This document shows, one piece after another, positions 991 through 11,307 of a DNA stretch of 13,502 nucleotides. Positions within the stretch are counted from its first letter, which is position 1. Each line of letters opens with the position of its first letter. The stretch lies in contig JAOUMF010000010.1 of the NCBI GenBank assembly GCA_029881615.1, positions 1 to 13,502 on the forward strand, given 5' to 3'. This stretch comes from Alphaproteobacteria bacterium. GTDB taxonomy: Bacteria > Pseudomonadota > Alphaproteobacteria > UBA8366 > JADFVY01. The notes beneath the pieces are model-generated. The model saw only the letters and a program-made list of their open reading frames with translations. It was not told the origin of the DNA and ran no database searches. Made by a program: the position numbers and the translations under genes.

Positions 991-1269
991 CTAATCTTCA
1001 GGTGAATTCTCGGGCTTGGCCCGGGTTCCCTGAATGATTTCGACCAGCCATTCCGGCGCGGCGCCGGCGTTTTCAGGATCGATAGATATCTCTCCCTCGC
1101 CGCCCAACTCTTCCTCCTCGCCGGACTCGCCAGCGAGCATCTGCAAGAGGTCTTGCGGTGGCCCACCACCATCGATGGCCTCCGGTACCACCATTACCGA
1201 GGCTTGTGCATGTTCTTCCCGTGTAACCGTCACGAAATCCCGGGAATCTTCTTCTATCGTGATTTTCAT
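991..1269 (-). CDS. Small acidic protein of the S8 protease cassette, with duplicated GGxPPxxLL-type motif
   Basis: This 92-aa protein follows the S8 protease with 17 bp between stop and start. GGGAG stands just upstream of the chosen ATG, whereas an upstream extension would run back inside the protease gene. It has 23 Asp/Glu against 5 Lys/Arg and no signal peptide or membrane segment. After a beta-like N-terminus (KITIEEDSRDFVTVT), a motif occurs twice 34 residues apart: IDGGGPPQDLLQMLAG at 32-47 and ENAGAAPEWLVEIIQG at 66-81. The shared pattern is [D/N]-x-G-x-x-P-x-x-L-[L/V]-x-[M/I]-[L/I]-x-G, the two copies being joined by an acidic EEEE-rich linker. The family is not recognised. Being last in the operon with a protease, it could be a substrate, adaptor or partner; that is inference. 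Confidence 0.75.
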   Translation of the reverse strand: MKITIEEDSRDFVTVTREEHAQASVMVVPEAIDGGGPPQDLLQMLAGESGEEEELGGEGEISIDPENAGAAPEWLVEIIQGTRAKPENSPED

Positions 1270-1286
1270 TGTCTTTGCTCCCGTTT

Positions 1287-3101
1287 CTACCAGCCAAGGA
1301 CCGCGTAACGCGCCTCGATATTGGCGGCGTCCGGTGTCAGGTTCCTGACAGTGACCCAATAGGTGATCTGCCGATCCGAGGCCCGCGTTACCTCCACATT
1401 CCAATCGATCTGCGGCCCACCGCTGCGAGGAGTAATCGGCACGACGTTCCAGTGTACGTGCCAATGCGCCGGCCAGCTATGGGTGAACCACCTTCGCGAC
1501 GAATTGCCAGGCACGGAGCCCGTGAACTGCACGCCTATCCATTCCCGGTTCCTAAGCGCCGCCAGAATCAGTTGGCGGAGATTTGGCCGGCGACCGATAC
1601 GCTGCGTTCGTGGGCCGTTAGGGCCGTCCTGCTGCGGCGACCCCGTCGCACGAAGCAGGTCCCGTGCGCGGGCGGGGCTTAACAACGGCCGGCGACGCGC
1701 CCGCAGAATACCCTGTACACAGCCAAGGGCACCCACGACGATCGGCGAGGCGCTGGAGGTGCCGCTGAATCGTTTCGTGTAATGCAGATTTGGGTTAGTC
1801 CCGCCTTGCAAATCCCCGTAACCGGTGGTGACAACTTCGCGGCCCCAACCCTGGACGTCCACGGCCGATCCATAGTTCGAAAATCCCAGCCGGGATCTGT
1901 CCGGGCCGTAATTGCCGGACGGTGGCGCGCCCGCGCCCACCAATACCGCACCCGAATCGCGCGGTCCACGTCTGAACGGATTTTTCCAGTCAGCCGGGAA
2001 CCCGGCAGACGGGGTATCGTAGATGGCGGCATCCAGATTCTCGCCGCCGTTGCCCGCCGCTTCGACCACGACAATCCCGCGATTAACCGCATAGCGGATG
2101 GCGGCGTAATCGTCCGGCCACCATTCCATCGGGATATACCCCTTTTGGCCCGCACCCGTGGCATTGGGCCCCGGCCGATGCAGTTCGATCAGGATAATGT
2201 CACCCGACCGAAGCAGATTGGCCGCCCGGCGGATTGCGCCGGCGGAACCGACACCGCCGAATATCGACACACCCCTTACGTGGGCATCGGCACAAATACC
2301 CGTAATACCGAAACTGTTGAGGTCCCCGCCGATCTCGCCGACGACCGCCGTGCCATGATTAACCCAGCCGGGATCCGTTGAATTGATCCCAACAACGCCG
2401 CCCTGATTCTGACGCAAATCTTCGTGCGCAAAGTTCCAGCCGCCTTCGACATCACATATCCGCACGCCGAGGCCACGCCCACCGGCCAGCGTCCAGGCAT
2501 AACGCGCGTCAATACCGCCGGGCGCCGCATTCAGGTAACCCTGTTGCCCTGTAAAATCGGCGGTCGCCGGCAGCGCCTCGTCCGCCAACGCGGCCATCAC
2601 ATTGATCTCGTCCTCCATCCGCGGCGGCGCCTTTACCGGTGCCTTCGGTTTGACGGCTTCCGCCGCTTCCGCGGCCGGGTAGGCCGGCGGCTTGACATAG
2701 GCGCCAGCCACCCCGCTGGTCGCGCAAAGCTTCTCGCACAGCGCCTTCAACTGGTCTTCGGGCGCATCAATTCGGTAGAAGAGGGACAGGTCCGGCAAAT
2801 CCTCTCCGGCGGCTGCCGCCGAATCCGCGGTCGCGGCCGTGACTTCGGCCTCCATTTCCGCCAGAACCCGCTCCTCACTGTCACCGAACAACGGCCGGCA
2901 GACTGCGCCGGCGGACGAGAGAACCGAGGCTAGATCGCTCACGTCGGCGTCCGTCACGGACTCCATCCCCGCCACCCGAGCACGTAGACCCACCTCCCTT
3001 TTAGCCACCATGATAAGTTCGGGTTCCGAATGCGGGTTTGAACCATTCGCCGACGACTTATCGGCACCACCACCTGAACCACCAGAAGATTTTGTTTGCA
3101 T
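1287..3101 (-). CDS. Subtilisin-like serine protease (peptidase S8) with N-terminal pro-domain and C-terminal Trp-rich domain
   Basis: This 604-aa protease starts at the ATG at 3101, because GGAGGAG lies 7-8 bases upstream of it. The ATG at 3116 contains that ribosome site and is unlikely. Residues 1-30 are a Ser/Gly/Asn-rich tail, and no signal peptide is seen, so it is either cytoplasmic or leaves by a non-Sec route. Residues about 60-145 resemble a pro-domain (GAVCRPLFG...VAGAYVKPPAYPA). The S8 catalytic domain spans about 190-515. Its triad is Asp217 (ICDVEGGW), His249 (VNHGTAV) and Ser449 (SGTSSASP), with oxyanion Asn351 (AAGNGG), so it appears active. Residues about 520-604 form an extra, probably beta-sandwich domain with a Trp/His-rich core (WFTHSWPAHWHVHW), a module I associate with other bacterial proteins of unknown role. 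The substrate is unknown. The gene sits between two small cassette partners. Confidence 0.9.
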   Translation of the reverse strand: MQTKSSGGSGGGADKSSANGSNPHSEPELIMVAKREVGLRARVAGMESVTDADVSDLASVLSSAGAVCRPLFGDSEERVLAEMEAEVTAATADSAAAAGEDLPDLSLFYRIDAPEDQLKALCEKLCATSGVAGAYVKPPAYPAAEAAEAVKPKAPVKAPPRMEDEINVMAALADEALPATADFTGQQGYLNAAPGGIDARYAWTLAGGRGLGVRICDVEGGWNFAHEDLRQNQGGVVGINSTDPGWVNHGTAVVGEIGGDLNSFGITGICADAHVRGVSIFGGVGSAGAIRRAANLLRSGDIILIELHRPGPNATGAGQKGYIPMEWWPDDYAAIRYAVNRGIVVVEAAGNGGENLDAAIYDTPSAGFPADWKNPFRRGPRDSGAVLVGAGAPPSGNYGPDRSRLGFSNYGSAVDVQGWGREVVTTGYGDLQGGTNPNLHYTKRFSGTSSASPIVVGALGCVQGILRARRRPLLSPARARDLLRATGSPQQDGPNGPRTQRIGRRPNLRQLILAALRNREWIGVQFTGSVPGNSSRRWFTHSWPAHWHVHWNVVPITPRSGGPQIDWNVEVTRASDRQITYWVTVRNLTPDAANIEARYAVLGW

Positions 3102-3123
3102 CTTAGCTCCTCCCATGGGTACG

Positions 3124-3144
3124 GCCGCCGGCCCATCCGGCGGC
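3124..3144 (-). promoter_or_regulatory. Intercistronic hairpin upstream of the S8 protease
   Basis: GCCGCCGG and CCGGCGGC form a perfect 8-bp GC-only stem with a 5-nt loop, in the 63-bp gap between the pro-domain-like gene and the protease. No U-run follows, so it is not a standard intrinsic terminator. It ends about 15 bases before the GGAGGAG site and could slow read-through, mark an RNA-processing point, or adjust the ratio of the small protein to the protease. Confidence 0.4.
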
Positions 3145-3164
3145 TTGGAAGGCGCACTCTCCAG

Positions 3165-3467
3165 TCAGGCTGGCTCCGCGGACGGTTTCACATACGCCGC
3201 CGAAACCGCGCCGAGATCACGCAACGCGGCAAGGACTTCTTCGTCTTCGAGGCCTTCAGCCCCGATAAGCGTGAAGTAACTTGCCAGTTCCACATCCTCC
3301 TCGTCAGGATGCATGGGTCTCAATGACGCTCCAAGCTGCGCGAGTTTGTCATCAAGTTCCTGTTTGAGTTTTTTGTTTTTTTCAGTCGTTGCACCGCTAC
3401 CATCGATGCCACCAGAAAGTCGGGCGACCTCGGCCCTGAGCTGGATTATTTTCTCTGTCGCAGTCAT
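3165..3467 (-). CDS. Stand-alone protease pro-domain-like protein
   Basis: This 100-aa protein is the first gene of the S8 cassette. GGAAGAGG lies just upstream of the ATG. Residues 1-45 are a charged heptad-like helix (IIQLRAEVARL, KKLKQELDDKLAQL), possibly a coiled coil. Residues about 46-100 match the pro-domain of the next gene: GASLRPMHPDEED against GAVCRPLFGDSEER, and VSAAYVKPSAEPA against VAGAYVKPPAYPA. The protease copy has an extra Ala-rich stretch between these blocks. S8 pro-domains act as folding chaperones and tight inhibitors of their own protease, so a free copy could inhibit or assist the S8 enzyme in trans. The homology is seen in the sequence; the function is inferred. No signal peptide is present. 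Confidence 0.75.
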   Translation of the reverse strand: MTATEKIIQLRAEVARLSGGIDGSGATTEKNKKLKQELDDKLAQLGASLRPMHPDEEDVELASYFTLIGAEGLEDEEVLAALRDLGAVSAAYVKPSAEPA

Positions 3468-3535
3468 CAGGCCTCTTCCTCAGCCTATCCAGCGAATCAT
3501 ATCGCCTGCGCATCCGTGTGACGACCCACGCGAGA

Positions 3536-3553
3536 AACGAAATTACTTTCGTT
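3536..3553. promoter_or_regulatory. 7+7 bp inverted repeat in the leader of the protease cassette
   Basis: AACGAAA-TTAC-TTTCGTT is a perfect inverted repeat with a 4-bp centre. It lies 69 bp upstream of the first cassette ATG and about 80-100 bp downstream of the predicted transcription start. It could be an operator acting as a roadblock, or an RNA hairpin in the leader. It has no U-run. The regulator is unknown. Confidence 0.35.
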
Positions 3554-3640
3554 CTGACGCCTCGCCAAATGAGGAGAGTACACCTACACGCTTCGAAAAG
3601 GCTGTTTCAGCAATAACTTGCCTTATCGCGCGCTCAACCT

Positions 3641-3669
3641 AACATACTCCCCTATCAATTATATTTCAA
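3641..3669 (-). promoter_or_regulatory. Candidate sigma70-type promoter of the S8 protease cassette
   Basis: On the minus strand TTGAAA (5 of 6 to the -35 consensus) is followed after exactly 17 bp by TATGTT (4 of 6 to the -10 consensus). It lies in a locally AT-rich stretch between the ceramidase-like gene and the cassette. Transcription would begin near 3634 and give a leader of about 165 nt, longer than needed for translation alone. This supports the three-gene cassette as its own transcription unit. Confidence 0.5.
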
Positions 3670-9412: not shown

Positions 9413-11116
9413 TCAGGGATCGGCCGATGGCCGGATGACAGGGGAGTGGCCGGGATTTCCGTCGGGCTCGGGCACGCCGGGCGGCAGGACGAAGGTCACG
9501 CTGTGGGCGCCGGCCAGCCCCGCGGGAAAGGCGATCTTGCGCTGAATCACCAGTAGCGCGCGGCCCAGCACGAAGGAGGTCGGATGTCTGCTCAACTCGG
9601 GTGAGTTTTCTATCGTCTCCAAGAGTTCCGACCTATCCTTGCCATAGGGCCCCAGCGCGCCTTCGTCGAGAAGCTGCGCCAACCCGGCTTCCTGCGGCAG
9701 AACCTCGTAGGGTCCGACCGGCAAGGGTGAGACTACCGACTCCGCCTCGATGCGAACCAGCCCACCGGAGTTGTAATGCAGCATTTCGCGCCACAACGGT
9801 TCGCCGGGGGTACCCTTGGGCGGAGTAACGGTTTCCGGATAGGTGTGTTTTTCCTTGATGGCGCCGCCGGGCAGGCTGGCCTGGCCGATCCCGTAATGGA
9901 CGACGGTATCGTCTACCGGGCGGCCGATCACGCGCTCCATGACTTCCCTTTGCGATTTCTTGATCCTTCCACCTTCTTCATAGCGCGGTACGCAGTCGCG
10001 CATGCCGGTGAAATGGACACGGTCCTTCGGCAGGCCGACCACGCCAATGCGCGCCCGGCCATCGCGTGTGCGTTTCTGGGAATCGGCGACGAATACGGCG
10101 ACGCGCCCGACCGCGCCGGAGAGGCGCCAGACCACCGCGTGATGGCTGCCTACCACGACATAGAGCGGCCGGTCACCCTCTTCGATGTGCACATCGATGA
10201 CCTGGACTACCTCATCGTCGCCGCCGATGGATACCGTCGACAGGGCGATTCCCTCATACGCGGCCAAAAGCAGGATGCGCGCGTCGCCCGGCACTTCAGG
10301 CATCGCGCAACCCTCGATCAGCTTGCGCTCCAGTTCCCGCTGCCGCCGGGCTTTCTCTTCCGCGCGGCGTTCTCCCGTTTCCCTGCTGATGAATTGCCGA
10401 GCCAATTCATTGCCCTTGGCCTTTTCGTCCGGTGACAGCGTGCCATCGCCATCCTCGTCAATTATCGCGATCGCCTGTTCCAGGACGGCGGAATATTCCT
10501 CCATGGTCACCGTGCCATCACCGTCCTTGTCGAGATAAGAGGGAATCTGACGGCTGCTGTCGGGCGGCGGCTCGACCGGCGGGGCCATATTGCCAGCAGC
10601 CGCCAGCATTTCGGCGAAGACGATAACGCTATCGCCATCGCGGTCATGCTGCAGTACGGTTCCGACCAGCGTTTCCAGCCTCTGGCGGATCTGGTCGGGC
10701 GTCGGTTCCAGCGTGACGCCGTCGGCCGGGATCGGCGCCCGCGCCCTGCCACCCATTTGGGATTCGATCTCTTCGCGAGTCACTGCGCCGTCGCCGTCTA
10801 TATCCAGCAACAGGATACCGGAAACCGTTGAGGCACGACCACGGGCCGCATGGGTCTGCGCCCGCAGAAGGTAATCCGCATCCGATACGCCACCACCATT
10901 GATATCCGCCGCAAGAAAGATTTTGCGCATGGCGTCGCGGGTCTGGTCCAGATTACTCTGCCTGCCGGCAGGGCCAACTATCTTCGACAGCGCCCAGCCG
11001 ACGGCGCGCGATTCCGACGCAGCCTGGTCGGCTGACGGCGTATCCTGCGCGATCGCGGTCCCCGCGAAAAGCACGGGCAATAAAATGGCGGTAGTCAGCG
11101 TTGCCGGTATTTTCAT
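9413..11116 (-). CDS. Secreted multi-EF-hand calcium-binding protein with uncharacterised C-terminal domain
   Basis: This 567-aa protein has a clear signal peptide (MKIPATLTTAILLPVLFAGT, cut after Ala-Ile-Ala at 21-23), so a periplasmic or secreted location is likely. Five EF-hand-like loops follow: 71-82 (DINGGGVSDADY, degenerate), 105-116 (DIDGDGAVTREE), 158-169 (DRDGDSVIVFAE), 196-207 (DKDGDGTVTMEE) and 220-231 (DEDGDGTLSPDE). Loops 2, 4 and 5 have full ligand sets. A highly charged helix (233-268) leads to a C-terminal region of about 300 residues containing Cys270 and Cys375, beta-rich stretches and no recognised motif. The start at 11116 was chosen because the signal peptide begins there and AGGG lies just upstream; the extra 12 residues of a longer reading are Arg-rich. 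It diverges from aceK. Calcium binding is likely; the role is unknown. Confidence 0.8.
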   Translation of the reverse strand: MKIPATLTTAILLPVLFAGTAIAQDTPSADQAASESRAVGWALSKIVGPAGRQSNLDQTRDAMRKIFLAADINGGGVSDADYLLRAQTHAARGRASTVSGILLLDIDGDGAVTREEIESQMGGRARAPIPADGVTLEPTPDQIRQRLETLVGTVLQHDRDGDSVIVFAEMLAAAGNMAPPVEPPPDSSRQIPSYLDKDGDGTVTMEEYSAVLEQAIAIIDEDGDGTLSPDEKAKGNELARQFISRETGERRAEEKARRQRELERKLIEGCAMPEVPGDARILLLAAYEGIALSTVSIGGDDEVVQVIDVHIEEGDRPLYVVVGSHHAVVWRLSGAVGRVAVFVADSQKRTRDGRARIGVVGLPKDRVHFTGMRDCVPRYEEGGRIKKSQREVMERVIGRPVDDTVVHYGIGQASLPGGAIKEKHTYPETVTPPKGTPGEPLWREMLHYNSGGLVRIEAESVVSPLPVGPYEVLPQEAGLAQLLDEGALGPYGKDRSELLETIENSPELSRHPTSFVLGRALLVIQRKIAFPAGLAGAHSVTFVLPPGVPEPDGNPGHSPVIRPSADP

Positions 11117-11307
11117 ATCCCTGCCCCTTTTGGTTGCCCGCCTAGTATCCATGACCGGGACTTAACAAATCATCAAGCGGGACATCGTTAGATCACGAAG
11201 GAATCATCACACCGCCAGGACAATCTTGAGACGTGGTCCGTTAAGTCGCATATCCATATCCGTCAATAACCGGCTATGATGAACCGGTAACGGCGAAACG
11301 GAGCCCC

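Follow-up and report, generated by a model that had tools for sequence, protein, structure and literature searches.

Gene layout of the cassette

The window analysed here is the complete contig JAOUMF010000010.1 (13,502 bases) of an alphaproteobacterial genome that is 82% complete. It carries, consecutively and all on the minus strand, genes for a free pro-domain (hereafter PRO), a leaderless subtilisin-type (S8) protease, and a small acidic protein, the three-gene cassette that a preliminary description had recognised in this DNA. By analogy with known propeptides, we regard PRO as probably an operon-encoded, stand-alone, propeptide-like (I9-type) inhibitor of the adjoining protease. The genes and their features lie at the following positions (aa, amino acids; pI, isoelectric point):

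3165..3467, minus strand: PRO, free pro-domain gene, 100 aa; no signal peptide seen; C-terminus ...AAYVKPSAEPA
1287..3101, minus strand: S8 (subtilisin-type) protease, 604 aa; corrected start, GGAGGA 6 bases upstream; PF00082 match, E 3.8e-14
2673..3020, minus strand: the protease's own N-terminal pro-domain, residues 33-148 of the 609-aa frame
1551..2561, minus strand: S8 catalytic domain with Asp222, His254, Asn356, and Ser454 (609-aa numbering)
1290..1538, minus strand: S8 C-terminal beta-strand domain, about residues 527-609; six strands listed within 528-608
991..1269, minus strand: acidic protein, 92 aa, predicted pI 4.05; 17 bases past the S8 stop codon
1135..1173, minus strand: acidic protein, copy 1 of a duplicated motif, DGGGPPQDLLQML
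1033..1071, minus strand: acidic protein, copy 2 of the duplicated motif, NAGAAPEWLVEII

The open frame of the protease begins at position 3116, and the ATG at 3101 is preceded at six bases by GGAGGA and encodes Met 6, which is nearly invariant in the alignment of relatives; for these two reasons the start is most likely 3101, which gives a protein of 604 aa instead of 609 and gaps of 63 bases between PRO and S8 and of 17 bases between S8 and the acidic gene. The genes first outlined are thus all present, with two of their limits revised: the protease is shorter by its first five residues, and the cassette ends at 3467 instead of 3669.

The protease has the subtilase domain of the S8 family with its Asp, His, Ser, and oxyanion Asn. 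Asp222, His254, and Ser454, which we take to be the catalytic residues, and Asn356, presumably the oxyanion residue, are invariant in 29 aligned sequences, and the triad is intact, as it had appeared from the window alone. The absence of a leader was borne out as well: by a simple hydropathy test, a strongly hydrophobic N-terminus was found in 0 of the best 120 of 5619 S8 matches; a remoter relative, L031, starts with a signal-like stretch. The C-terminal parts of the relatives vary and comprise a beta domain, FG-GAP, a lysine/glutamate (K/E)-rich tail, or repeats. Two relatives are altered in their reading frames. At L084:2162-3550, in a genome of the same class, the S8 frame lacks the stretch with the catalytic Ser and continues in frame into an RPDL tail, which reflects either a deletion or an assembly fault. 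At L039:4573-6071, on a Paenibacillus plasmid, S8 is broken into two overlapping open reading frames (ORFs), one for the pro-domain and one for the catalytic part, and a trypsin-like gene lies next to it.

Homology, predicted fold, and C-terminus of PRO

Two blocks are common to PRO and the S8 pro-domain, GASLRP / GAVCRP and VSAAYVKPSAEPA / VAGAYVKPPAYPA, and both had been picked out in the preliminary description. A direct BLAST comparison of the two window proteins was not significant (E 1.3) and was rejected as proof of homology. An hhalign comparison of 22 free proteins with 29 S8 proteins, by contrast with the blocks alone, carries the case: it gave a probability of 97.9 and an E-value of 5.8e-13 over a stretch that covers both blocks. 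To judge from this alignment, PRO is homologous to the pro-domain of its cognate protease, and clearly so at the level of the two families.

The AlphaFold model of PRO (predicted local distance difference test, pLDDT, 80.1) contains strands at residues 5-10, 47-51, 64-69, and 88-94 and main helices at 29-45 and 75-83, and the order of these elements is that of S8 residues 33-142, both structures being predicted. PRO is thereby predicted to have a ferredoxin-like fold like that of the protease's pro-domain and to end just past the last strand; a 100-aa fold unrelated to the S8 pro-domain, the outcome considered beforehand as damaging to the idea, is not what the models and the family alignment give. 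Searches of Pfam, NCBIfam, and PADLOC with PRO returned sub-threshold matches only (Rab11-FIP3, E 0.051; CD1247_Nterm, E 0.012).

The C-terminus of the free form is nearly fixed. An alignment search, whose profile spans the C-terminus and favours proteins that keep it, found 109 stand-alone homologues at E<=0.01, including the window's own, and in 105 of these a Y-x-K-P-type motif (pattern [YF]x[KQRAES]P) lies 5-8 residues from the end, at exactly 5 residues in 81. One of the remaining four ends 11 residues past the motif and three are unmatched, two of them with W in place of Y. The free consensus reads A-Y-V-K-P-A-D-E-L-P and ends there, whereas the fused consensus, A-Y-V-K-P-P-A-Y-P, continues. 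In one homologue, P0197, a C-terminal extension closes with another P-A-D-E-L-P, a hint that the sequence may be recognised by itself. The C-terminal tail of known subtilisin propeptides reaches into the active-site groove (PMC6993865), and a conserved C-terminus is what such a tail-in-groove mechanism predicts.

Distribution, inheritance, and gene neighbourhood

A free PRO gene lies close to S8 in 18 of the 34 S8 relatives from a species-level genome collection. Over all loci counted it lies beside S8 in 22 of 48, a sample made up of the window, 33 of the 34 collection loci (L013, whose S8 begins at the contig end, was left out), five of nine plasmid matches (H1-H5; H6-H9 unread), and nine genome-search loci, and one in which loci are not independent (eight are from Nocardia) and flank lengths differ, some PRO-less loci (L007, L018, L019, and others) having 1-4 kb upstream only. 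Five more distant S8 loci, L083 and L085-L088, in which no PRO was found, are outside the 48. The carriers belong to six phyla (Pseudomonadota, Bacteroidota, Chloroflexota, Myxococcota, Nitrospirota, and Actinomycetota), and PRO stands just upstream of S8 on the same strand in 19 of the 22 loci; it is downstream on the other strand in L006 and divergent in L020 and L034. The order PRO, S8, acidic gene recurs in the alphaproteobacterial loci L002-L005, and L068 and L069, from a phylum search centred on a Chloroflexi genome, have PRO, S8, a free beta-domain gene, and the acidic gene. In related loci PRO has moved (L006, from Methylibium rhizosphaerae) or is lacking (L007), and in Haloferax L036 only S8 and a free beta-domain gene are present. 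Neither outcome named in the preliminary description as speaking against it, a gene order not conserved elsewhere or a fold unrelated to the S8 pro-domain, was thus observed, and the cassette is real, conserved, and beyond chance.

PRO follows the kind of protease. It is present with 8 of 10 beta-domain proteases, the type found in the window, with all 12 that have a K/E-rich tail and/or ATP-grasp genes, and with 2 of 26 others (Fisher p 3e-9, uncorrected for relatedness and with groups set after the loci had been seen). When 12 whole genomes were scanned with the PRO profile, with at most 150 candidates scored per genome, matches at E<=0.001 were confined to PRO (11) and the pro-domain of the S8 next to it (12). 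PRO was not found at E<=1e-6 in 58 other relatives of the window genome, and of the 385 genomes of the class and the 43 of the order, 2 and 1, respectively, have a window-type S8 at E<=1e-60. This patchiness suggests that the PRO-S8 pair spread by horizontal transfer.

The acidic protein has a narrower range. Homologues occur in 9 of the 10 beta-domain S8 loci, those of L068 and L069 with weak E-values, and none was found in the other loci searched. Its duplicated motif, noted before together with its acidity, is conserved among the homologues; the protein has no match in Pfam, NCBIfam, or PADLOC. It is a conserved partner of one S8 subtype. The earlier suggestion of a partner, made beside that of a substrate, is partly supported, since the gene goes with the beta-domain loci; a role in PRO-S8 pairs at large was rejected for it. 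It would work with the C-terminal beta domain of the protease. That domain also occurs as a free-standing gene just downstream of S8 (L036:7749-8003, L068:2975-3226, and L069:2896-3147), so that, counting PRO, each of the two terminal domains of the protease also has a gene of its own; in L007 a second copy of the beta domain comes right after S8.

Free PRO appears to have been inherited together with the protease. On the S8 tree of 49 loci, PRO presence requires 5 changes against a shuffled mean near 16, with 0 of 500 shuffles as low, although near-copies inflate this clustering. A pro-domain tree (84 rows, few columns) separates free from fused forms by 4 changes against 27.7 in shuffled data; its 37 'free' rows probably include L039, whose S8 pro-domain is detached by a break in the reading frame. 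The likelihood rose when all free rows were kept as one group (approximately unbiased test, p-AU 0.746), and a single free PRO lineage is not rejected. PRO distances correlate with those of the catalytic domain (Mantel test, r 0.59, 0 of 5000 permutations, n=18) in a set of 18 of the 20 PRO loci that includes the near-copies L003 and L005, L014 and L084 having been left out by a motif filter. To judge from the trees and this correlation, individual genomes hardly derived their free form anew from the adjacent protease gene. A history of recurrent local pro-domain duplications is not favoured: the tree with free forms together is likelier, though the unconstrained tree needs 4 changes.

A chance or decaying duplicate of the pro-domain, devoid of function, would accord with the non-significant match between the two window proteins and with the many S8 relatives that have no PRO. 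We consider it very improbable in view of the 109 stand-alone homologues with their fixed C-terminus, the grouping of PRO-bearing loci from different phyla on the S8 tree, and purifying selection in L068 and L069. Between these two loci the ratio of nonsynonymous to synonymous substitution rates (dN/dS) is near 0.14 in PRO, compared with 0.15 in the acidic gene and 0.05 in S8. A functional alternative is that PRO mainly helps S8 to fold or assemble, acting in trans as a second intramolecular-chaperone domain relocated to a gene of its own, with inhibition secondary. Subtilisin propeptides aid folding besides inhibiting (PMC6993865), PRO and the S8 pro-domain share a predicted fold, and in 19 of 22 loci the PRO gene precedes S8. 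Yet the protease retains its own pro-domain in the same chain, 26 of 48 loci manage without PRO, and the free end, K-P-A-D-E-L-P as opposed to the fused K-P-P-A-Y-P, looks more like a specialisation for the mature enzyme; we hold the chaperone to be a weaker rival of the inhibitor, and rather unlikely.

In 11 sister loci (L008, L009, L011, L014, L015, L017, L020, L030 from Paraflavitalea, L032, L034, and L084), PRO and S8 are followed by ATP-grasp genes, with the ligase directly after S8 in all 11 and a short pre-ATP-grasp protein before the ligase in 10; in L011 the ATP-grasp gene reads as two ORFs. Among three examples compared with Pfam, RimK was above the cut-off in two and the MvdD pre-ATP-grasp domain below it in two. 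Many S8 tails in these loci are K/E-rich (FI..RPD, then K..KD.KD.E; L014 lacks this), and such a tail is a candidate fused substrate of the ATP-grasp enzymes. The window differs from these loci, which share PRO with it: tblastn with two ATP-grasp and three pre-ATP-grasp proteins found no credible relative there (best E 0.26 over 26 residues). The loci of branches 7 and 8 in PMC8939145 are described as peptidase-linked, with a truncated ATP-grasp protein and no predicted precursor, and the sister loci, with their S8, short pre-ATP-grasp protein, ligase, and PRO, resemble branch 8 by that paper's wording and not by a tree. Graspetide groups with neighbouring proteases are also mentioned elsewhere (PMC13097080). 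For peptidase-linked ATP-grasp loci, whose precursor PMC8939145 was unable to predict, PRO would be a new small component.

These loci raise the alternative that PRO is itself a substrate or precursor, its pro-domain fold a docking leader that recruits the protease, and elsewhere the ATP-grasp ligases, for processing or modification of the C-terminal tail. The 11 loci with ATP-grasp genes directly after S8, the peptidase-linked loci without a known precursor (branches 7 and 8 of PMC8939145), and the high conservation of the PRO tail fit this proposal. On the other side, the window contig has no credible ATP-grasp relative. Precursors of ribosomally synthesised and post-translationally modified peptides are expected to have a variable core region, and the PRO tail has none; we judge a precursor role improbable.

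A conflict role, suggested in the preliminary description, has indirect support. No PADLOC-DB model scored below E 0.04 for the four proteins scanned (best E 0.046 and 0.048), two scans of IMG/VR, each with a few short peptide patterns, brought up nothing related to the S8 alignment or to the one PRO homologue used, and no neighbour among the seven window proteins scanned with Pfam or NCBIfam points to conflict. A phage or virus origin was rejected on these pattern-limited IMG/VR scans; remote S8 relatives in 4 phage records cover 46-54% of the query. The supporting locus, L090:2344-8957, is on plasmid pRlX5 of Rhizobium johnstonii, where a diverged PRO relative, P0231, directly follows a trypsin-NucA fusion, with defence-type SIR2 and HerA genes one gene further on. 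P0231 scored 36.6 bits, a value that dropped to 9.4 once the last 15 residues were removed (shuffles <=4.1), and is 32% identical over its length to the L084 PRO. NucA-trypsin systems, some with S8, have been described as conflict systems (PMC7159879); 'System 3' of that work is like the pRlX5 locus in its trypsin-NucA fusion, of which the window has no relative, and the section that describes it mentions no small propeptide-like protein. The pRlX5 case is a single locus that bears indirectly on the window, and a conflict role of the window cassette is weakly supported.

Beside these results stand several observations on neighbouring genes. Two further window genes encode a 579-aa EF-hand protein (9413-11152) and, next to the downstream end of the cassette on the other strand, an FG-GAP-like protein (108-914, below the Pfam cut-off), neither with a visible link to the cassette. 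Paenibacillus oralis (L010:6485-15314) has an array of M4 protease, Emfourin, S8, a CYTH/histidine-phosphatase protein, a matrixin-like protease, and a trypsin-nuclease fusion, and at L022:12138-15884 an RHS-repeat protein with a toxin domain lies near a PRO-less S8.

Immunity is a close rival of the inhibitor reading. PRO would then be an immunity protein that guards producer and kin, and S8 an antibacterial effector delivered to neighbours. A protease and its inhibitor in one operon form a toxin-immunity layout, as argued for protealysin (PMC9505478), and the variable C-terminal modules of the S8 family, the scattered occurrence (2 of 385 genomes in the class), and the lipoprotein-like signal of PRO in L068 and L069 (L068:4997-5416 and L069:299-766, both with signal-like starts), suited to defence against an incoming enzyme, fit as well. 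Against it, none of the seven window proteins scanned was recognisable as part of a delivery system, in a survey not aimed at delivery genes, and no PRO apart from the S8 locus was found in the 12 whole genomes. We find immunity credible and still unlikely.

Proposed mechanism and comparison with known systems

Homology, predicted fold, conserved operon-like order, a fixed C-terminus, and co-inheritance are the established ground from which we infer the binding, the inhibition, the place, and the trigger. The protease's own pro-domain presumably folds it and blocks it first. PRO would then occupy the cleft of the mature enzyme, its fixed tail (mostly Y-x-K-P plus five residues) lying, by I9-type analogy, in the substrate cleft; since nothing follows the tail, PRO would be hard to cleave, and it would silence the mature protease in the producer until release, delivery, or inhibitor loss frees it. 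The case for inhibition in trans is strengthened by the fixed C-terminus, by the single free lineage that was not rejected, and by co-inheritance.

Several points weigh against this proposal, beginning with the sampling limits given above, namely the C-terminus-spanning profile, the near-copies, and the non-independent loci. PRO is absent from 26 of the 48 loci, so the protease can live without it. Inhibitor_I9 of Pfam (E<=1) matches neither PRO nor the protease's own pro-domain, and because the latter fails too, the test discriminates poorly; by analogy, we class PRO as I9-like in its presumed action and not as a member of the Pfam family. Foldseek with the PRO model placed ribosomal S6 and other ferredoxin folds at the top of its PDB matches, none at E<=0.001, and when PDB sequences were searched with the PRO profile, no S8 propeptide came up, the best match (E 0.0017) being an entry named GCG binder. 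Confidence in the S8 model is modest, with a mean pLDDT of 69.8 and with parts of the catalytic domain under 50. At least 2 of the 4 free/fused changes in the unconstrained pro-domain tree are forced by starred branches, and dN/dS of PRO exceeds 1 for L003/L005, on few changes and for a pair too close to tell. P0231 pairs with a trypsin-type protease and not with S8. Finally, five PRO proteins (L068, L069, P0135, P0150, and P0172) have signal-peptide- or lipobox-like N-termini by hydropathy and eye; this sits ill with a guard confined to the cytoplasm, and in some hosts the meeting place would lie outside it.

A wider idea, speculative and in our estimate unlikely, is that PRO, as one old family with a nearly invariant ...YxKPxDELP end, is a general bacterial brake for proteolysis-armed systems, acting on leaderless S8 proteases and, in a diverged form, on trypsin-nuclease fusions until some trigger removes it. 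The ATP-grasp enzymes of the sister loci might then lock or tag the K/E-rich S8 tail or the PRO tail as a switch, and the S8 tail could be the missing substrate of the peptidase-linked ATP-grasp loci.

Pro-subtilisin E and Tk-subtilisin are secreted and carry their pro-domain in cis; the window protease has no signal peptide and is accompanied by an extra, free copy of the pro-domain. The emfourin/protealysin pair, an intracellular M4 metalloprotease and a dedicated small inhibitor in one operon, has a similar layout (PMC9505478) with another protease class and another inhibitor family: Emfourin (PF20242) has no match in PRO or the acidic protein at E<=1, whereas its model matches L010:7658-7978, beside an M4 protease. 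Among eukaryotes, stand-alone propeptide-like subtilase inhibitors include Pleurotus peptidase A inhibitor 1, yeast peptidase B inhibitor, Arabidopsis SPI-1, Toxoplasma MIC5, and Plasmodium SUB1-ProM (PMC6993865). These MEROPS I9 inhibitors and mimics are, like PRO as predicted, products of small separate genes with a propeptide fold, and SUB1-ProM likewise lies at a locus next to three subtilase genes (PMC6993865). The I9 trio is said to lack significant sequence similarity to propeptides, whereas PRO shares sequence with the neighbouring pro-domain; PRO also differs in being bacterial, operon-like, and nearly fixed at its C-terminus, and would be an inhibitor by analogy. No described case of a bacterial stand-alone propeptide-like subtilase inhibitor was found among the titles listed in searches of an open-access library.

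Eukaryotic stand-alone propeptide-like inhibitors and bacterial operon-encoded protease inhibitors are thus already known, and the PRO family would combine both. Convergent evolution has been suggested for the stand-alone inhibitors of fungi, plants, and apicomplexans (PMC6993865). The bacterial family, as its sequences indicate, has common ancestry with the pro-domain of the neighbouring protease, travels with that protease across phyla, and keeps a nearly fixed C-terminus, and these three properties make trans-inhibition by a free pro-domain testable with two genes.

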